From positions 1 through 18,284 of the forward strand of contig JAEORM010000163.1 of NCBI GenBank assembly GCA_016840905.1: a stretch of DNA of 18,284 nt. The letters are read 5' to 3'. Positions 4,085-18,280 of the stretch are shown piece after piece; positions within the stretch are counted from its first letter, which is position 1; each line of letters starts with the position of its first letter. The stretch is from Candidatus Gerdarchaeota archaeon (GTDB lineage: Archaea > Asgardarchaeota > Heimdallarchaeia > JABLTI01). Below the pieces are notes generated by a model, which saw only the letters and a list, made by a program, of their open reading frames with translations, had not been told where the DNA came from and ran no database searches. The translations under genes and the position numbers were made by a program.

Positions 4085-4966
4085 TTGACAGACAATATTT
4101 TAGTTGATCATGATTTATGTTCTGGTTGTCGAACTTGTATTGAGGTATGCCCTCGAGATTGCTTTTCATTAAGCGAAGATAAGAAATCAGTTTTTACTCC
4201 TGCATATTGTCATAATTGTTGTCATTGCATTTCAACTTGCCCTGAAAATGCTATTAGCCATAGAGATTATCCTTCCTCTAATTTCTTACCAATTAAAGAT
4301 TTTCTTGACCCAAAGTTCCTTGATGGTGAACAGATGTACTATCTATTGAAATCTATTAGAAGCACTAGAAAGTATTTGAAAAAACCTATTGAACAAGAAA
4401 AAATTAACAAATTGGTTGATATTGTTAGATATTCTCCTACGGGTCATCATTCTCAAAATGTAGAGGTACTAGTCGTTACAGATCCAGTACTCTTTCAACA
4501 ACTTAAAGATGAAAGTGAACGAACTATCAAATCGTTTTATAAAAAAATAGCTAATCCTTTACTTGTTTTCTTTGCTAAGATTTTTGGTAAAGGTGCTGCA
4601 ATAAAGAAATTACGTGAAACAAAACCACGATTTGATAGAATGTTAAAAGGGTTTGAAACAGGTGAAGAGAATCTTTTTCATGGAGCACCTCTCATGATGA
4701 TTTTTCATGCTAATAAAAATAGTATTACTCCTTTAGATAATTGTACTATAGCTGCCACAAATGTTCGTCTATTAAGTCATACTTTTGGTCTAGGTTCGTG
4801 TTTTATAGGTTATGTTGCGCAATTCGGTAAATATAACACTCGTTTTTTGGAAATACTCAAAATACCAAAGAACAATAAAATCTATCAAACATTGGTAATT
4901 GGGTACCCAAAACACAAATTTAGAACTTTTATTGCCAGAAAAGAATTACAAGTAGTTTTTTACTAG
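4085..4966 (+). CDS. Ferredoxin-nitroreductase fusion (2x[4Fe-4S] plus FMN domain)
   Basis: A 293-residue fusion protein. The N-terminal ferredoxin domain (about 8-60) has two complete cluster motifs: C12, C15, C18 and C22, then C42, C45, C48 and C52, the last of each followed by proline. The nitroreductase domain (about 87-293) begins with IRSTRKYLKKPI, the usual FMN-phosphate-binding start, continues with SPTGHHSQN near 117-125, and has a glycine-rich GLGSCFIGY segment near 235-243. The family binds FMN and moves electrons to quinones, nitro-compounds or other acceptors. The fused ferredoxin suggests it takes electrons from a low-potential carrier. The true substrate is unknown. The start is TTG at 4085, set by GAGGAG at 4071-4076 with 8-nt spacing. 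It follows the membrane protein gene in one operon. The protein is cytosolic or membrane-associated, without a signal peptide. Confidence 0.92.
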   Translation: MTDNILVDHDLCSGCRTCIEVCPRDCFSLSEDKKSVFTPAYCHNCCHCISTCPENAISHRDYPSSNFLPIKDFLDPKFLDGEQMYYLLKSIRSTRKYLKKPIEQEKINKLVDIVRYSPTGHHSQNVEVLVVTDPVLFQQLKDESERTIKSFYKKIANPLLVFFAKIFGKGAAIKKLRETKPRFDRMLKGFETGEENLFHGAPLMMIFHANKNSITPLDNCTIAATNVRLLSHTFGLGSCFIGYVAQFGKYNTRFLEILKIPKNNKIYQTLVIGYPKHKFRTFIARKELQVVFY

Positions 4967-5183: not shown

Positions 5184-5774
5184 ATGGAAGATTTGAGAAA
5201 ATTTCTTGATAAAAACAAGGATAAAATACATGATTTGTTGAATCACATGTGGCAAACAATTGAACAAATTGCTCTCCGTTTTGAAGAAGAAATTCCTGAT
5301 GTTGATTTAGATAATTCCCATGGCAATTTCATTGAGCTTAATGAAGGTTGGTCCGAGTCTTTTTATGCCAATCCTACAGTTACTTTTCCTTATGGTGAAA
5401 TAGGGTACTCATTAGATGGCTTATATTGCGTATTAGCAGTAGATGCTAAAAAATTGGATCAAGATTATTTGACTAAATTACTTGAACTCTCACAAGAGAG
5501 TGATGAATTAAAAATAGAGATTTACGGAGGAGATGATTGTTTTACAACTTTCTTTAATTCAAAAGAACCAACTGATTTTGATGAAATTTTAAAAATTATT
5601 GCAAAATCAAAAGAAGATGTTCTACAAATTGATCTCAATATACCTGCTTTTTCTGATGAAGATGATAAAGAAATACTCCTAAATCAATTTTTAACTTTGT
5701 ATAAATTTTTAGCCAGTAAAAACTCTCTAGCAAAATTACCTACTTATTTAACAAATGAAGAAAAAGAAGAATAA
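5184..5774 (+). CDS. Small acidic archaeal protein, possibly DUF3201-like
   Basis: A 196-residue, strongly acidic, soluble protein. The start is ATG at 5184, supported by AGGTGAT at 5171-5177. It opens with an amphipathic helix (about 1-36). An alternating strand region (about 60-90) includes NPTVTFPYGEIGYS and YCVLAVDAKK. It then runs through a helix, a strand ending in YGGDD (about 114-118), a helical segment, and a strand LQIDLNIP near 147-154. The order of elements matches my recollection of the archaeal family of unknown function DUF3201, but this is from memory and not a search result. No enzyme motif is visible. Its stop codon abuts the stop codon of the convergent membrane protein gene with no gap, so each mRNA 3' end must run into the other gene. 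Its role is unknown. Confidence 0.8.
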   Translation: MEDLRKFLDKNKDKIHDLLNHMWQTIEQIALRFEEEIPDVDLDNSHGNFIELNEGWSESFYANPTVTFPYGEIGYSLDGLYCVLAVDAKKLDQDYLTKLLELSQESDELKIEIYGGDDCFTTFFNSKEPTDFDEILKIIAKSKEDVLQIDLNIPAFSDEDDKEILLNQFLTLYKFLASKNSLAKLPTYLTNEEKEE

Positions 5775-6683
5775 TTAACTTGAATTTCTTTTATAACCTT
5801 GTTTAATTAATTCTTCTGATTTTTTTCTTTGTTCCATAATTTCTTCTTTAAAAGCTGACCGATTTAAAGCAAATTTATCTATATAGATATAATTTAGAGT
5901 GAAGCTTATATCAAATATCGGGTAGATTAAAGCTCGAGCTACTGCCATTAAAATTCCTATATAATTGAGTGGCATTTGAGTTTTAACATAGAAGCTTAAT
6001 GCATAAGGAGCAAATATACAAAGAACAGCTACAGTAAGATAAATTGACATAGATTTAAACCAATTTTCCTTGCTACCATATCTCCATGATTTTTGTAATG
6101 CTTCACCTATGTGTAAATTATCCCTTGTCATTCCAGGAATAAACGCTGTTAGTTTATTACCAAATAATAAAGGAAGAAATAATGCTGCGATAATCATTCC
6201 CAAAGCTATACCCGGCATTCGCAATTGCATTAAAAGACCTATAGTCAATAATATGATTGGAAAGACAGCTATTACTAACGTAAGTAAAGTAAATTGAATC
6301 AATTGTGGAATCTTTTTTGCCGTATTTTCTAATGCCCAAGCAAAGTTAGCTTTTCCGTTTTCAGCAGTTTTCCAAGTAACACTAGAAACATATGCACTTC
6401 TAAAAATGAATATTCCTAAGCCCATAACTAATAAAATATAGAACGCTGCTTGCCCAAAATCATTCGTGTAATCTATACTAATAGATGTAACAGGATGAGA
6501 ATCAAATATTATATTAGAAATGTTCAAGATTACTAATTTGAATATTGCGAAGAATAAGATTTCAGGGATTAATGATATTAGAAAAATCTTGAAGAATTGT
6601 TTGAAATATATCTTAAATGATTTACCTAAAATTCTGAAATAGTTGCCATCCCTTGGTTTAAATTCAAGTTCTAATTCAGACAT
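5775..6683 (-). CDS. Six-helix membrane protein resembling the GDPD/YciC-type membrane domain
   Basis: A 302-residue protein with about six membrane segments, near residues 33-56, 78-98, 128-152, 157-180, 212-234 and 240-262. The N-terminus (GNYFRILGKSFKIYFKQFFK) is a basic amphipathic helix. Residues about 186-207 (TRDNLHIGEALQKSWRYGS) match the loop typical of the DUF975/YciC/glycerophosphodiester phosphodiesterase membrane-domain superfamily, in which a GEALxxSW-like motif sits between helices. The C-terminal tail (about 270-302) is charged and helical. These proteins are poorly understood and appear to act in membrane organisation or as accessory subunits. The ATG at 6683 has a GAGGT ribosome binding site at 6691-6695. 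It follows two M50 protease genes on the same strand after an 80-bp gap, so it may be cotranscribed and share a role in membrane protein quality control. Confidence 0.8.
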   Translation of the reverse strand: MSELELEFKPRDGNYFRILGKSFKIYFKQFFKIFLISLIPEILFFAIFKLVILNISNIIFDSHPVTSISIDYTNDFGQAAFYILLVMGLGIFIFRSAYVSSVTWKTAENGKANFAWALENTAKKIPQLIQFTLLTLVIAVFPIILLTIGLLMQLRMPGIALGMIIAALFLPLLFGNKLTAFIPGMTRDNLHIGEALQKSWRYGSKENWFKSMSIYLTVAVLCIFAPYALSFYVKTQMPLNYIGILMAVARALIYPIFDISFTLNYIYIDKFALNRSAFKEEIMEQRKKSEELIKQGYKRNSS

Positions 6684-6763: not shown

Positions 6764-8314
6764 TTACCCAAACCACGTTTGAAACATTTGTTTTAATAAT
6801 TCAATTGGTAATGGTAGACATAGGAACCCAATTACATATCCAATAGAAATGTAGACGTATTTTGACCAATGAACTTTTGAAACATCATCTATTGAACCTG
6901 GATGTTGCATGAAACTCATTACCAATACCAGAAAGCCAAAAATTCTTGTAAAGGGATTAACTACAAGCAATAATGATATTACTAATGAAACAATCCTATG
7001 TGCAGTTCCACCAAAAACAGCTCTTGCAGTGTGTCCACCATCTAATTGTGAAGCTGGCATGAGATTTAAACCTGTAATTAGCAATCCAACATATCCAGCA
7101 AACATCATTGGATGCATAGCAATAGTTTGCATTGTTGGATCAAAGTATGGAACTATTCGTAACCATTGTCCTATTATAATCATGAAATTCATGAAAAAGA
7201 CTGTTGGTATTTGAGTGGGATCATAATCCAGTAAATCAGGATTTATATCCACTACATAAGTCATTTTTAATCCTACAAGAAATACAGGAATTGTTACTAG
7301 AAATCCTGCAACAGGTCCTGCTATACCAATATCAAAGAGATCATCTCTTGTGGCAAATGGTTCTTTTTGTCTTATCAATGCACCAAAAGTCCCTAATGTT
7401 TGAAATCCTGGTATAGGTGGTACAGGAATAAAATAGGGTAATGAAGCATCTAATTTCTTCATCCTCGAAATTGAATAATGTCCTAATTCATGGGTACCAA
7501 GGATAGCGATCAATGAAAAGGTAAAAAGAAAAACATCTAAAGCTGGTCTTCCTTGAAAGAAATATGAGTCATAAATATTTTTTGCATATTGCCAACCTGC
7601 AATAGCAACAGTTACAATTGTAGCTACTAATAAGGCAAGATTTAAGGCGATATTCTTAAATTTATATCTATCTTTAGTAGCTTCTGGTTCCCAATAGAAA
7701 AATCTTAGAACGATATCCTTTATTCCTGGATTAACTTGTTCATTACGAATTATCATTTTGAGATTCCTATCATTCATAAGAGAGTCTTTTCTAAGTTTAG
7801 AAAACGTTAAATTAACATCTGCAGGACGATCTACTAAAAATACTGGCCCTGCTTCACTATTGTGTCCTTCTTTTACTTTTACATATTTATTAATGGTTAC
7901 TTCTAACTCATCAAAAGTAAGCTCAACAGCTTTGAACTGCTTGTCTTTTGGTGAGTATACTGCTAATCTCTGGGTTACATCTTTTTGAATTTCAATTGCA
8001 GGTGTTTTTTTCAAAACTTCTAAACCTTTATTTGTTAAGGGACTACCACAAATCCCACAATTATCACCAGATGTGGTACCACCACACCTCCAACATCGAA
8101 CATTTGTAGCTGGTTCTGAACGGCTAAAAATCTCTGATCTAATTTCTTCACTTAAGGGGGCATGACAATTAGCACAATATTCTCTTTGACTTTGATATTT
8201 AATATCTGCTCCACAATGCCAACAAAAGGTTATATCACTGTCTTTTACTGAGCCTGTAATTTCTTCCTTTTTATTTTCGTTTGCAGCAGATTCATCATTA
8301 TTTTCCTGTGGCAC
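6764..8314 (-). CDS. Site-2-type membrane metalloprotease (M50) with two N-terminal zinc ribbons
   Basis: A 516-residue intramembrane zinc protease. Two zinc ribbons come first (C31, C34, C47, C50; then C74, C77, C86, C89), followed by a soluble region with a conserved FYWEPE patch near 206-211. The membrane domain starts near 222. Catalytic motifs are complete: HELGH at 275-279 and N417-LMP with LDGG at 424-427, supplying the third zinc ligand. M50 proteases cleave membrane-spanning substrates, often to release regulators. The ribbons may recruit substrates or partners, which is inference. The start is GTG at 8314, supported by GAGGGA at 8320-8325; CTTTATATGA (8361-8370) is a likely own TATA box. 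It is a paralog of the next gene upstream on the same strand (8397-9953), with the same architecture throughout. Confidence 0.93.
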   Translation of the reverse strand: MPQENNDESAANENKKEEITGSVKDSDITFCWHCGADIKYQSQREYCANCHAPLSEEIRSEIFSRSEPATNVRCWRCGGTTSGDNCGICGSPLTNKGLEVLKKTPAIEIQKDVTQRLAVYSPKDKQFKAVELTFDELEVTINKYVKVKEGHNSEAGPVFLVDRPADVNLTFSKLRKDSLMNDRNLKMIIRNEQVNPGIKDIVLRFFYWEPEATKDRYKFKNIALNLALLVATIVTVAIAGWQYAKNIYDSYFFQGRPALDVFLFTFSLIAILGTHELGHYSISRMKKLDASLPYFIPVPPIPGFQTLGTFGALIRQKEPFATRDDLFDIGIAGPVAGFLVTIPVFLVGLKMTYVVDINPDLLDYDPTQIPTVFFMNFMIIIGQWLRIVPYFDPTMQTIAMHPMMFAGYVGLLITGLNLMPASQLDGGHTARAVFGGTAHRIVSLVISLLLVVNPFTRIFGFLVLVMSFMQHPGSIDDVSKVHWSKYVYISIGYVIGFLCLPLPIELLKQMFQTWFG

Positions 8315-8396: not shown

Positions 8397-9953
8397 CTAC
8401 AAGAAAAATATAGAAATTGGCAGCGGTAAACAGCAAATAGCAATAATTATTGCCAATACTTCAAGAAGATACTTAGACCAGTGAGCTGGCGAAACTTCAT
8501 TTGTGACTGGTGTTTTATAACTGGTAGTTGGTATAAACATTATCAAAATTCCCAATAACCAAGTATTATAATTGATCATCACTAACAAAGCTGATATGAA
8601 TGAAAATACCTTTGTTAATCTATCACTGAACAAACTACGAAACATGAATCCCCCATCTAAGATACCTCCCGGTAAAAAGTTTAATCCGTTTATAATTATA
8701 CCAACTAATGCTGCATTGGCTACTGGATGAAGGAATAAAAATTGCGTTTCAGGGTCGAATGTTGGAGCAATCCTAACAATTCCAGTAAACCATTCTAGGA
8801 ATTTTCCTACTAATAGGTAGGGATCAAATTTTGTTAATAGAGTAATTTCATCTTGAATTTCTGGTGTTAGTACTGTTTTATTTTCAATATATGGAAATGC
8901 TGAACCAACCAAAAAAAGTATTATTGATAATGTTAATCCAACAGCTGGTCCAATAAAAAATAAATCAAATAAATCGTTTCTTTTTTTCACAGGATCGGTA
9001 ACTCGAACAAATCCTCCAGCTGTCCCGAGCATAAAAAAACTCAATAAACCTGGGATTGGTGGTAAAGGTATAAAGTAAGGGTTCGTTAATGTTATTTTCT
9101 TTTTATTCTGCATTAATATGTGGCTTAACTCATGTGCTACTAAAATTACAATAAGAGTGACAGTATAAAGTGTGGTATCAATAATGACATTTTTACTTAT
9201 TGAGAACAGTCTAAAGACTTCTCGATAATAAAGCCATCCTGTGATGATTATTGTAGTTAATGACAATGCTGCTAGTGCTAATTTCCATTGGTTTTTATTG
9301 AAAGCAAACCTTTTACTTGTATCTTCAGGTTCCCAATAAAAAAACTGGATTAAAGCTAGATTTTCACTACTCACAGCTGATTTTGATTTCTTAATTAGCA
9401 ATCTTATATTATTTTTTATCAATAATTCATCCATTTCTAAGATGGTATACTGTGAATCATCTTTTGGTGTTTCAACAATTACTTCAGGACCATAATTGGT
9501 AACAACAGAATTCATTACTTTGAGATTTTTTCCTATTAATGTTAACAATTCAGAAAATAGTATATTTACTCTCACAAATTGTTTATCTTTAGGAGAATAA
9601 ATAACGATTTTTTCTTTCTCTACACTATCCTCTTCTTCAATATAACGAGGTCTTCTTTTTGCCTGAGAAATTAGTTCTAATCCGATTTTTGTCAGAGGAC
9701 TTCCACATATTCCACATACATCACCTGATGTTGTTCCCTGGCATCTCCAACACTTAAAGGATTCAGAACTATTAGTTCGATTCATAATTTCTTCTATATC
9801 TTTCTTTTTAAGGGGAGCTTTACATTCATCACACCAATCACTGTTGTGTAATTGAGCGTTACAAAACCAACAAGTCTTTCCCGTTAAATCATTGATTTTC
9901 TTCGAATCATTTGAATTGGCTTTTTTCCCTTCTGAATCCAATAAAGGCACCAC
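8397..9953 (-). CDS. Site-2-type membrane metalloprotease (M50), paralog with zinc ribbons
   Basis: A 518-residue intramembrane protease with the same plan as its neighbour at 6764-8314. It has zinc ribbons C28, C31, C41, C44 and C68, C71, C80, C83; a soluble linker containing YSPKDKQF (119-126) and FYWEPE (205-210), both shared with the paralog; and then a membrane domain. Catalytic motifs are intact: HELSH at 274-278, and N425-FLP with LDGG at 432-435. The membrane region and linker have drifted clearly from the paralog, so this is an old duplication with probable division of substrates. The second ribbon is the best conserved part. The start is GTG at 9953, immediately followed by a second GTG; no good ribosome binding site is seen. 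TATA-like CTTATAAG (10008-10015) lies upstream. The protein is expected in the cytoplasmic membrane with cytosolic ribbons. Confidence 0.93.
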   Translation of the reverse strand: MVPLLDSEGKKANSNDSKKINDLTGKTCWFCNAQLHNSDWCDECKAPLKKKDIEEIMNRTNSSESFKCWRCQGTTSGDVCGICGSPLTKIGLELISQAKRRPRYIEEEDSVEKEKIVIYSPKDKQFVRVNILFSELLTLIGKNLKVMNSVVTNYGPEVIVETPKDDSQYTILEMDELLIKNNIRLLIKKSKSAVSSENLALIQFFYWEPEDTSKRFAFNKNQWKLALAALSLTTIIITGWLYYREVFRLFSISKNVIIDTTLYTVTLIVILVAHELSHILMQNKKKITLTNPYFIPLPPIPGLLSFFMLGTAGGFVRVTDPVKKRNDLFDLFFIGPAVGLTLSIILFLVGSAFPYIENKTVLTPEIQDEITLLTKFDPYLLVGKFLEWFTGIVRIAPTFDPETQFLFLHPVANAALVGIIINGLNFLPGGILDGGFMFRSLFSDRLTKVFSFISALLVMINYNTWLLGILIMFIPTTSYKTPVTNEVSPAHWSKYLLEVLAIIIAICCLPLPISIFFL

Positions 9954-15009: not shown

Positions 15010-15807
15010 ATGAGTTTCACCGAGGATATAATTGAAGAGCTGAAAAAACTTGGATTTAATGAATACCAAGCTAAAATCTACACAGCCCTAGTGGGATTAG
15101 GTGTAGCGACAGCTTCAGAAATATCCCAAGCAAGTGGAGTACCGCCAAATAAAGTATATTCAGTTATTGATAGCTTGAAAAGCAGAGGTTTGGTATTAGC
15201 TCAAGAGAGTGATACCAGCACAAACAGATATCGCCCTCGTTCTCCTGATTCAGTTATTAAAGATTTAAGGAATGAATATGAGAAAGCTTTTCAAAAAACA
15301 GAGAATAAACTTTTTGCTCTTTATGAGCGCAGTAAGAAAACATTTATCCCTGAGATGTGGATTCTTCGAGGATCACAAGCGGTTTTTAGTAAAATAAAAG
15401 AAATGGTAATGGATGCTAATTCAACTATCTCTATTGGTATTGATAGTCCCTTTGATTTACACTTACATGGTATTGATCAAGTGTTGCGGGATGCTCGAGG
15501 ACATTTGAAAAGTATCAAGATAATTACTGGTAAAGATGGTATAGATAATCCCGGAGAAGTCAATGTGTTAAATAGTCTAATAGATTCTGCTGAAATAAGA
15601 ATCTCTGAGAACTTTCATGCTATATGGGTAATAATTGATTCCAAAGAACTATTACAGGGAAGTTATGCTCAATTGGAAGGGGGAATCGAATTAGGGGTCA
15701 TGGCTACCTGGACAGATAATCAAGGATTTGCTCAATTATGGCAAAGATTTGTTGAATCTCTATGGGAGACTGCCACAAAATACGAAGATTTGAAATTAAA
15801 AGTGTAA
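15010..15807 (+). CDS. TrmB-family transcriptional regulator
   Basis: A 265-residue regulator. The N-terminal winged helix-turn-helix (about 4-76) carries the family pattern LKKLGFNEYQAKIYTAL, ASEISQASGVPPNKVYSVIDSLKSRGLV and a wing. A helical linker (about 80-112) is followed by the TrmB effector domain (about 115-265), starting EMWILRGSQAVFSKI and containing NFHAIWVIIDS (201-211), the degenerate phospholipase-D-like strand seen in many TrmB-like proteins. Family members bind sugars or other small ligands and repress or activate metabolic promoters; the ligand here is unknown. The full-length effector domain argues for ligand control rather than a simple DNA-binding stub. An ATG at 15006 is out of frame, so 15010 is the start. 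It is convergent with the small GTPase gene, with only 9 bp between stops. Inverted repeats upstream suggest self-regulation. Confidence 0.9.
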   Translation: MSFTEDIIEELKKLGFNEYQAKIYTALVGLGVATASEISQASGVPPNKVYSVIDSLKSRGLVLAQESDTSTNRYRPRSPDSVIKDLRNEYEKAFQKTENKLFALYERSKKTFIPEMWILRGSQAVFSKIKEMVMDANSTISIGIDSPFDLHLHGIDQVLRDARGHLKSIKIITGKDGIDNPGEVNVLNSLIDSAEIRISENFHAIWVIIDSKELLQGSYAQLEGGIELGVMATWTDNQGFAQLWQRFVESLWETATKYEDLKLKV

Positions 15808-15816
15808 AAGAAAAAA

Positions 15817-16401
15817 TTAGCTTGTTTGCCAGAAGCTAAAATCACTATCTTCTTCATCATCTTTTTTCGGTTCAGCTGATCGTTTGACTTCATTTTTAAG
15901 AATAACTTTAACTAACCCCTCAAAGAGATCAGGAACACTAACGCCTGTTTTAGCTGAAGTTTCAAGATAAATCAATTTCTTGTCTTTTGCAAATTGTTGA
16001 GCTTCTTCAGTGGAAACTTTACGTTGATCAGCAATGTCGAATTTATTGCCAGCCAAAACAACAGGAATATTACCAGCATTTTGACGGATTTGTTTTAACC
16101 AATAATCAAGAGAATTGAAGGAATTTCTATTGGTAATATCATAGACTAAAACACCACCCATTGCACCTTGGAAATAGAAAGGAAGGAGAGACATAACAAA
16201 TTCTTGACCACCGGTATCCCATAATTGCAATTTTATTTGTTTATCATCTATAGATAGATTTTTTGTCATAAAATCTACCCCTAGTGTTGGCAAATAAGAC
16301 TCTCTGAATCGATCTTCCGCGAATCTAATTGTTAGGCTTGTTTTCCCTACTTTTCCAGCACCAACTATTATTACTTTAAACAAATGTTGGTATCTTGGCA
16401 C
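15817..16401 (-). CDS. Rab/Ras-like small GTPase
   Basis: A 194-residue small GTPase with all five G-boxes: P-loop GAGKVGKT (14-21), switch I threonine in PTLGVDF (T39), WDTGGQE (61-67) with catalytic Q66, NKFD (119-122) and ETSAK (147-151). The overall order and LQLWDTGGQE, VLVYDIT and SAKTG segments are Rab-like, but DTGGQ has a glycine where Rab and Ras have alanine, as in Arf and Gtr types. The tail is acidic (DDEEDSDF) and lacks any prenylation cysteine, so membrane attachment must differ from eukaryotic Rabs. Such GTPases are greatly expanded in Asgard archaea. The GTG at 16401 is the listed start, but a strong GGAGGT (16424-16429) points to an in-frame ATT at 16416 that would add SRPG-type residues. 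The gelsolin-like gene lies 116 bp upstream on the same strand. Confidence 0.95.
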   Translation of the reverse strand: MPRYQHLFKVIIVGAGKVGKTSLTIRFAEDRFRESYLPTLGVDFMTKNLSIDDKQIKLQLWDTGGQEFVMSLLPFYFQGAMGGVLVYDITNRNSFNSLDYWLKQIRQNAGNIPVVLAGNKFDIADQRKVSTEEAQQFAKDKKLIYLETSAKTGVSVPDLFEGLVKVILKNEVKRSAEPKKDDEEDSDFSFWQTS

Positions 16402-16423
16402 TCCTGGTCTAGAAATTTTTATT

Positions 16424-16429
16424 ACCTCC
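16424..16429 (-). promoter_or_regulatory. Strong ribosome binding site that disagrees with the GTG start
   Basis: GGAGGT on the minus strand ends 22 nt before the GTG at 16401, too far for normal initiation, but exactly 7 nt before an in-frame ATT at 16416-16414. There is no ATG, GTG or TTG in frame between the two. An in-frame stop at 16437-16435 limits any longer form. Confidence 0.5.
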
Positions 16430-16517
16430 AGATTTTACTTTTCATTGTTTTGTTGTTTTTCTATTATTTATGTTATTCGATAGTTGATTTTTGTCCTTTT
16501 TTTGTTTCCACATCTTT

Positions 16518-17261
16518 TTATCTTCGAGTCCATAATTCTATTCCCAAGACTTTTTGGTTTGATACTAGAATTCTTGGGTAGTAATTTTCGGCTGGAAATA
16601 CTCCTTCTGGTAAGGTAGCTACTTCCTCTAATGTGAAATCCCCTTTTCGAAGGTCGGATTTATCATCACTCACAATAATATAGAGTTTGTTTTCTATTAT
16701 TACATAATCACAACTAGATACTTCAGGTGGGTCTAATGACATCATGGTTTTTACTACTTTAGCTAATTTAGGTGGTAACTCAGCTGTTTCCCCACTTTTT
16801 GTTTTTGTAGTTGTTGTTTTAGATTTCGTTGTTGATTTCGTTGTAGTTTTTGTTTCTTTTGTGTCTTTTTCTTTTTCTTCTGGGGTAGTTTTTGATTGAA
16901 CTTGAGTGGTTTCTTTCTTAGGTTCGACTTTTGCTGGAGCTTGTTTTGGAGCTTCTTTTTCATCTTCTTGCAAGCCTCCTAGAAAGTCTAAAATTGGTAG
17001 AAAGTCCTCATCTATTCCATCTTCTTGCTCAATATGTTTAATTCTATAACCTTGTTGTAAACGCATTGCAGAAGCACGTCTAGCAACAGCAAATTTCTGG
17101 ACAATGGATATTTTAGAACCTTTGAAAACATAGATACAATGGTCTGTATGAGAGACTATTATAGCACAAGTTTTGCTATTTATTTTCATATCACCTGTTT
17201 CAACTTTTATTTCTTCTCCATCATCAGTCATAGCATAGCAATCTAAAAGCATGGTGAACAC
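16518..17261 (-). CDS. Probable gelsolin-like domain protein with Lys/Thr-rich linker
   Basis: A 247-residue, three-part protein. Residues about 1-96 fit the gelsolin repeat: a strand ending TCAIIVSHTD, then CIYVFKGSKISIVQKFAVAR with the aromatic-x-x-G-x-x-S pattern before the long helix, then GYRIKHIEQEDGIDEDFLPIL matching the conserved strand, acidic turn and final helix. Gelsolin domains bind and sever or cap actin; Asgard versions are known. A low-complexity Lys/Thr/Glu linker (about 100-160) follows. The C-terminal domain (about 165-247) is mixed alpha/beta, with strands DYVIIENKLYIIVSD and ILVSNQKVLGIELWTRR, and may be a degenerate second repeat or something else. The listed start is GTG at 17261; ATG at 17252 fits the domain start equally well. 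The small GTPase follows downstream. The domain call is by pattern only; a longin/roadblock-type fold is the main alternative. Confidence 0.75.
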   Translation of the reverse strand: MFTMLLDCYAMTDDGEEIKVETGDMKINSKTCAIIVSHTDHCIYVFKGSKISIVQKFAVARRASAMRLQQGYRIKHIEQEDGIDEDFLPILDFLGGLQEDEKEAPKQAPAKVEPKKETTQVQSKTTPEEKEKDTKETKTTTKSTTKSKTTTTKTKSGETAELPPKLAKVVKTMMSLDPPEVSSCDYVIIENKLYIIVSDDKSDLRKGDFTLEEVATLPEGVFPAENYYPRILVSNQKVLGIELWTRR

Positions 17262-17290
17262 TAACTCATTTTTTAGTAATTGATATGAAA

Positions 17291-17310
17291 TTTGTTTTTA
17301 TTTAAACAAA
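17291..17310. promoter_or_regulatory. Palindrome over the gelsolin-like gene TATA box
   Basis: TTTGTTT (17291-17297) and AAACAAA (17304-17310) form a perfect inverted repeat around a 6-bp AT core. On the minus strand the middle reads TTTAAATAAA (17297-17306), a good TATA box that would start transcription near 17275, about 23 nt before the ATG at 17252. A palindrome exactly on a TATA box suggests a repressor site. Confidence 0.45.
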
Positions 17311-17437
17311 AGACTTTCGGAAGTGACATATTATTAAAACTATTCATCTTTTGTTATTAGTTCTATTAATTAAAGATTAATTATGATTCATATCATTAAA
17401 GGAACCTTTTTCAATTGTTTGCTTTATACTTCATAGG

Positions 17438-18280
17438 GTGAACATACTAATGAAAGTCGTCGATCGAGAAAAAGTAATTGCTGATGTCACTAATGCTCTG
17501 GATGCATCTTCGTTTAAAAAAGCAAAGGATATGTGGAATTTCCTAATCTCAGATGAAGAAATACAAGGGTCAATAAAAGCAGCAAATCGTCTTGCAGTAA
17601 AATATCTCCACTATACTGATCATGGTCTTGATCATGTCACTATTGTCTGTCGGAATGTCTTAGAAATAATAAATATAGTAAAAGATGAAATTATCCCAGC
17701 CATAATAAGACAAAATATTGGCGATATAGATGATGTTGTATTAGTTTGCTTAGCTGCATGTTATTTACACGATATAGGTCATATTATTCATCGTAATTTC
17801 CATGAATTAACATCTTCGATTTTGGCAAAAGATTTACTCTATCCGAAACTAAAGAAAATTTATCCTGAAGCTGAGAAACGCCTTGACATTTTATCCCATA
17901 TTCAACATGCAATCCTTGCTCATGACGAAGAAATAGAATGTCTAACACCAGAAGCTGGTTTTGTTACAATAGCTGATGGTTTAGATATGTGTGAAGGTCG
18001 TAGTCGTAAACCATATGATCTTGGTAAAGTTGATATTCATTCTATCTCTGCTTTGAGTATTTCTTCTGTTGAAATAAGTAAAGGCTCTAAAAAGAAACCA
18101 CTTAGGTTGGATATTCTTATGGTATCAGAAGCAGGTATCTTTCAAGTTGAAGAAGTTTTTCTACCCAAGCTTGAGAGTTCTGGTTTAGCTGATGATGTTG
18201 AAATAAACACTTTGGTTAATGGTAAACCAATTGCTTTATCCCAAGTTTTGAAAATGTACAAAAAATATGATGAGATTTAA
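17438..18280 (+). CDS. HD-domain metal-dependent phosphohydrolase
   Basis: A 280-residue HD-superfamily protein. Metal ligands are visible in order: H62 and H66 in YTDHGLDHV, the HD pair H111-D112 in YLHDIGH, H157 and H162-D163 in IQHAILAHD, and D180 in ADGLDM. The extra histidines suggest a two-metal site. The region after about 195 is a mixed alpha/beta C-terminal domain (VDIHSISALSISSVEISKG and following) seen in archaeal HD proteins. HD enzymes hydrolyse nucleotides, cyclic dinucleotides or other phosphate esters; the substrate is unknown. The longest frame starts at GTG 17438, but GGGTGA (17436-17441) looks like the ribosome binding site of the ATG at 17450, 8 nt later, which is the better start. 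TATA-like CTTTATAC (17422-17429) lies just upstream. The protein is complete, with its stop 4 bp before the window end. Confidence 0.9.
   Translation: MNILMKVVDREKVIADVTNALDASSFKKAKDMWNFLISDEEIQGSIKAANRLAVKYLHYTDHGLDHVTIVCRNVLEIINIVKDEIIPAIIRQNIGDIDDVVLVCLAACYLHDIGHIIHRNFHELTSSILAKDLLYPKLKKIYPEAEKRLDILSHIQHAILAHDEEIECLTPEAGFVTIADGLDMCEGRSRKPYDLGKVDIHSISALSISSVEISKGSKKKPLRLDILMVSEAGIFQVEEVFLPKLESSGLADDVEINTLVNGKPIALSQVLKMYKKYDEI

Follow-up and report, generated by a model that had tools for sequence, protein, structure and literature searches.

The analyzed stretch of 18,284 nucleotides from a Candidatus Gerdarchaeota archaeon, termed the window, carries on its minus strand a gene (16518-17252) for a 244-amino acid protein that is a probable 1DGelX. 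The protein is composed of an N-terminal gelsolin domain (residues 1-95; 16968-17252), a low-complexity Lys/Thr linker (residues 96-156; 16785-16967) delimited from the model and the composition, and a C-terminal domain, termed the CTD (residues 157-244; 16521-16784), delimited from an 87-row alignment and from a model of the CTD alone. The stop codon follows the CTD directly at 16518-16520. The start is placed at the ATG at 17252, where the database copy of the protein (244 amino acids) also begins and whose methionine is almost invariant in 36 aligned rows; a GTG at 17261 is an alternative start that adds three codons and gives an open reading frame of 247 codons (16518-17261, minus strand). 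An intergenic stretch of 116 bases (16402-16517, minus strand), with a GGAGG located ~26 bases ahead of the next start codon, leads to a gene on the same strand for a Ras/Rab-type small GTPase of 194 amino acids (15817-16401; Pfam Ras PF00071, 6.1e-55), confirming the spacing and strand given in the original prediction. No terminator-like site is reported on the minus strand within 15700-17500. The GTPase has the motifs GAGKVGKT (G1), DTGGQE (G3), NKFD (G4), and TSAK (G5), and its last 10 residues contain no cysteine, in contrast to eukaryotic Rabs with their C-terminal prenylation cysteine, so that it is Rab-like and not a classical Rab. The gelsolin gene is divergently transcribed from a gene for an HD-domain protein (17438-18280, plus strand), copies of which, 71-77% identical, occupy the same place in loci L001-L006 and L023.

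The N-terminal domain has the gelsolin fold, with a mixed sheet and two helices, one long and one short, and the gelsolin core that had been claimed from the primary sequence is borne out for residues 1-95 by the AlphaFold2 model, Foldseek, VIA, and a profile comparison with the PDB. The closest solved folds in Foldseek and VIA are actin-binding gelsolins with ProGel at the top, and the A4 profile matches PDB codes 7c2f (1e-17) and 7whg (2.3e-17) and human gelsolin (PDB code 6jeh; 7e-9), the matches being confined to the N-terminal part of the protein. The search with the Pfam gelsolin model (PF00626) proposed at the outset succeeds only in part, with P0130 (26.4 bits) above the cut-off of 21 bits, P0103 (19.7) and P0086 (15.5) below it, and the window protein absent from the matches at E up to 10. 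The type II calcium ligands of gelsolins are a strand aspartate and a helix glutamate. Helix position 52 aligns with the glutamate of 7whg, and an acidic residue is found there in none of 44 rows, Lys, Ser, Arg, Gln, Ala, or Leu occupying the position in all 44; at the strand position an acidic residue is common among family members, but the window protein has a threonine. Judged from these alignments, the gelsolin-CTD family does not have the type II calcium ligands of the 2DGel type. By homology, the domain most likely contacts actin in the manner of the related ProGel and 2DGel, and calcium at the type II site is probably not needed for this contact.

The third part of the protein (residues 165-247 in the earlier numbering) had been set apart from the known two-repeat gelsolins. 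It is indeed not a second gelsolin domain, and its conservation now marks it as a distinct domain. Residues 157-244 are conserved to the same degree as the gelsolin domain and can be aligned in 87 rows spanning many Asgard lineages; at least 70 residues of the CTD are present in 86 of 86 aligned homologous rows, and both domains can be made out in each of the 43 rows displayed. Modeled alone, the CTD (pLDDT 90.1, pTM 0.80) consists of one helix followed by five strands, and no convincing match to it was found among solved structures, either by sequence or by fold. An assignment of the window protein as a 2DGel was considered and rejected, the helix and five strands of the CTD having no long helix within the sheet and the profile matches being N-terminal only. 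P0115, identified together with P0137 (444 amino acids) as a CTD-bearing protein in a CTD-only search, has the CTD at its N terminus and no gelsolin domain by sequence and Pfam scan, indicating that the CTD is able to stand alone; a paired-cysteine region follows the CTD in this protein.

The linker is disordered over residues 100-146 in the AlphaFold2 model of the window protein, and its composition varies freely in the family, with 6% proline in the window compared with 35% in some others. With 33-35% proline, the linkers of L061, L057, L074, and L062 are possible ligands of profilin; the title of PMC8410842 claims that Heimdall profilin binds polyproline. In the linkerless paralogues of L013 (1504-2085) and L014 (1504-2085), the gelsolin domain and CTD nearly abut, and no GTPase or roadblock gene is present among the open reading frames within ~1.5 kb; both paralogues lie near a TPR-like open reading frame.

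Among the known Asgard gelsolins, the Thorarchaeota ProGel (PDB code 7c2f) is a 94-residue chain and, unlike the window protein, lacks both linker and CTD. The 2DGels (PDB codes 7whg from Loki, 7whf from Heimdall, and 7c2g/7c2h from Thor) have a gelsolin domain homologous to that of the window protein but carry two such domains in tandem where the window family has one, and genomes with the window family encode canonical 2DGels in genes of their own (e.g. G001, G002, G004, and G061). The name 1DGelX, for proteins reportedly first described in Akil 2020 (PNAS), denotes one gelsolin domain joined to a part X of undefined nature, and such proteins are distinct from both 2DGel and ProGel, as is the case here; the architecture fits, and the window family is likely 1DGelX. 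In its accessible text, PMC9433394 lists two 1DGelX for MK-D1 and three for Loki GC14_75, giving the name and counts without sequence, X-domain, or neighbor detail; some 2DGels are described there as having C-terminal extensions, which unlike the CTD are a tail or a zinc domain.

A 38-row profile matched 206 of the 227 genomes of the phylum at E <= 1e-3, a count that includes other gelsolins. From the listed places 80 were fetched, from 76 genomes, selected by the gelsolin-protein match and not by the neighbor, and a family open reading frame is present at all 80; together with L001, L002, L004, L005, and L006 these form the set of 85 loci. Of 16 genomes examined, 15 have actin. One genome, G174 (L067, chromosome of 1,418,269 bases), has no PF00626 match despite encoding a gelsolin-CTD protein with a roadblock neighbor. 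This genome is probably Odinarchaeum LCB_4, so a gelsolin protein is found in what is probably an organism from which gelsolin was reported absent in the part of PMC8813620 available.

On the 3' side of the gelsolin gene, 19 of the 85 loci have a GTPase gene (9 same-strand and 10 tail-to-tail pairs) and 43 have a gene for a roadblock/LC7 protein (40 same-strand and 3 tail-to-tail pairs); the other 23 have neither. Conservation of the neighborhood in relatives, on which the original prediction hinged, is thus found; the gelsolin fold and the conserved pair stand, but the pair with a GTPase is only one form of a wider association. The GTPase neighbor is characteristic of the window and its Heimdallarchaeota relatives and the roadblock neighbor of most other Asgard lineages. 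In gene order, position +1 is a GTPase or roadblock gene in 61 of 83 cases (19 and 42, respectively), compared with 9 of 638 at all other offsets of the same loci (7 GTPases and 2 roadblock), a background in which other roadblock proteins are undercounted because the profile used for this control was built from the neighbors themselves; at position -1 none of 82 genes is of either kind. Pfam Robl_LC7 (PF03259) scores above its cut-off in five of five cluster-c1 members scanned, and among the matches listed an over-cut-off match falls exactly at the neighbor place in six of the seven scanned genomes whose fetched locus has such a neighbor; whole genomes have 5-17 Robl_LC7 matches.

The 23 loci with neither neighbor comprise two contig ends (L052 and L112), one with an intervening gene (L055), two second copies (L085 and L098) for which the other fetched copy in the same genome has a roadblock neighbor, and 18 true exceptions with readable flanks, which include whole lineages (G175-G178; G078, G079, G160, and G075; G036-G038). 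At L055 the GTPase is at +2, tail-to-tail, with an open reading frame (5731-6675) in between that by eye resembles a DDE transposase. Close homologues of the neighbor-type roadblock protein are present but unlinked in the GTPase-type genomes. In the relatives of the window (L157-L162), the closest homologue of the roadblock neighbor of the other lineages lies in a block with an open reading frame that by eye is prolyl-tRNA synthetase-like and with another, larger GTPase open reading frame, the block being present in five of the six loci. Around the gelsolin gene itself, the order HD gene, gelsolin gene, GTPase, TrmB, coiled-coil gene, and citG is kept in five of six close-relative loci, the sixth stopping at a contig end, and conservation of the pair among these relatives therefore says little by itself. 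Beyond the pair, the (-1,+2) neighbors form 7 different combinations where the partner is a GTPase and 17 where it is a roadblock gene, a contig end being the sole difference between some of them.

On the gelsolin-protein tree (86 rows), the neighbor label changes 10 times in all compared with a shuffled mean of 36.9. The side containing the window has GTPase neighbors or nothing, and the other side has mostly roadblock neighbors, with three GTPase rows (G047, G049, and G059) branching first on the roadblock side as drawn with the midpoint root. The GTPase tree contains 39 rows, 20 of which are adjacent GTPases (one of them at +2), and these are clustered, with 4 label changes compared with a shuffled mean of 13.3 and none of 500 shuffles as low. 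One GTPase clade (support 98/93) brings together same-strand (G041) and tail-to-tail (G044, G045, and G014-type) pairs, and the occurrence of both gene orders within one supported clade indicates that adjacency outlived rearrangement. All adjacent GTPases may form one orthologous family of common origin, the deep branch that bears on this having support of only 47/74. In 8 of 13 genomes no GTPase matches that of the window better than the adjacent one does, and in the other 5 the adjacent GTPase ranks second or third.

The best explanation, to which an even chance of being correct is given, is that the protein acts in Asgard archaea as a single-gelsolin adaptor that would couple a GTPase/roadblock switch to actin, with both contacts suggested by homology and gene order. 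It builds on what has been observed: a domain homologous to gelsolins and of their fold, a CTD that is conserved, and a pairing of genes that recurs. The N-terminal gelsolin domain would sit on actin, and the flexible linker would tether it to the CTD, which would most likely dock on a Ras/Rab-type GTPase or on a roadblock/LC7 protein controlling such a GTPase; the nucleotide state of the GTPase would then decide where or when capping, severing, or sequestration of actin takes place. The chief rival to the adaptor is a gelsolin fold that serves a GTPase, as in COPII, where Sec23 uses the gelsolin module at its C terminus to bind Sar1 and supply it with an arginine. By this analogy the gelsolin domain could be a GTPase-binding module that does not act on actin, the protein being a GAP, a GEF helper, or an effector of the GTPase/roadblock pair, and the nature of the neighbors and the helix residue Arg-58, invariant in 36 close relatives, are consistent with such a role. 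However, of 44 diverse rows 27 have Arg at position 58, 10 have Lys, and 7 have some other residue, so there is no strict arginine finger, and with actin-binding gelsolins (ProGel first) as the nearest solved folds and actin encoded in nearly all genomes examined, a GTPase-binding module is considered unlikely.

It is also improbable that the neighbors are merely co-regulated or held together for expression while their proteins serve separate processes. Shared regulation alone can maintain operon-like distances, and the whole six-gene block is kept in the close relatives of the window; the pairs in tail-to-tail order (with a GTPase in 10 loci and a roadblock gene in 3), however, persist where no shared transcript is possible, and both alternative neighbors belong to the same signaling module. 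A further point in favor of expression-only linkage is that, as a rule, small GTPase genes of MK-D1 do not share operons with genes for roadblock, longin, or TRAPPC3 proteins, for which reason the matching of Asgard GTPases and regulators from genome layout is called difficult in the accessible part of PMC10933270. The neighborhood is very unlikely to be a functionless frozen accident of ancestry with related genomes counted many times, for although the neighbor label does track the gelsolin-protein tree, the genes beyond the pair differ among lineages, orientation has switched with adjacency kept, and no such excess occurs at other positions of the same loci.

Asgard archaea are the archaea closest to eukaryotes, and the origin of actin control by GTPase switches is among the unsettled problems of eukaryogenesis. 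The recurrent pairing hints that GTPase-to-actin wiring predates eukaryotes. A broader proposal, made tentatively and with rather less than an even chance of holding, is that the GTPase, its roadblock regulator, and an actin adaptor with one gelsolin domain and a new type of CTD form an ancient Asgard signaling unit that would have coupled GTPase state to actin dynamics before eukaryotes; the Asgard lineages sampled would probably have inherited it from their last common ancestor. The association names candidate partners in many lineages, each time one gelsolin protein with one GTPase or one roadblock protein, and so makes the GTPase-actin question directly testable; it also highlights a conserved domain, the CTD, that has no convincing match among solved structures. 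The neighbors belong to the same families as the known modules of Ras/Rab-type GTPases and roadblock/LC7 proteins (MglA/MglB; Asgard Rab, roadblock, and TRAPPC3; PMC10933270), and the word gelsolin does not occur in the available text of that paper, where neither these modules nor MglA/MglB are tied to a gelsolin protein. No earlier report of a gelsolin protein paired with a GTPase or roadblock gene was found in the literature searched; subscription papers lay outside the search, and priority is therefore not proven.

Elsewhere in the window, two adjoining paralogues of an M50 membrane metalloprotease are encoded on the minus strand (6764-8314 and 8397-9953), both with N-terminal cysteine-rich pairs of zinc-ribbon-like appearance, and a plus strand gene (4085-4966) encodes a nitroreductase with a ferredoxin-type 4Fe-4S domain at its N terminus.
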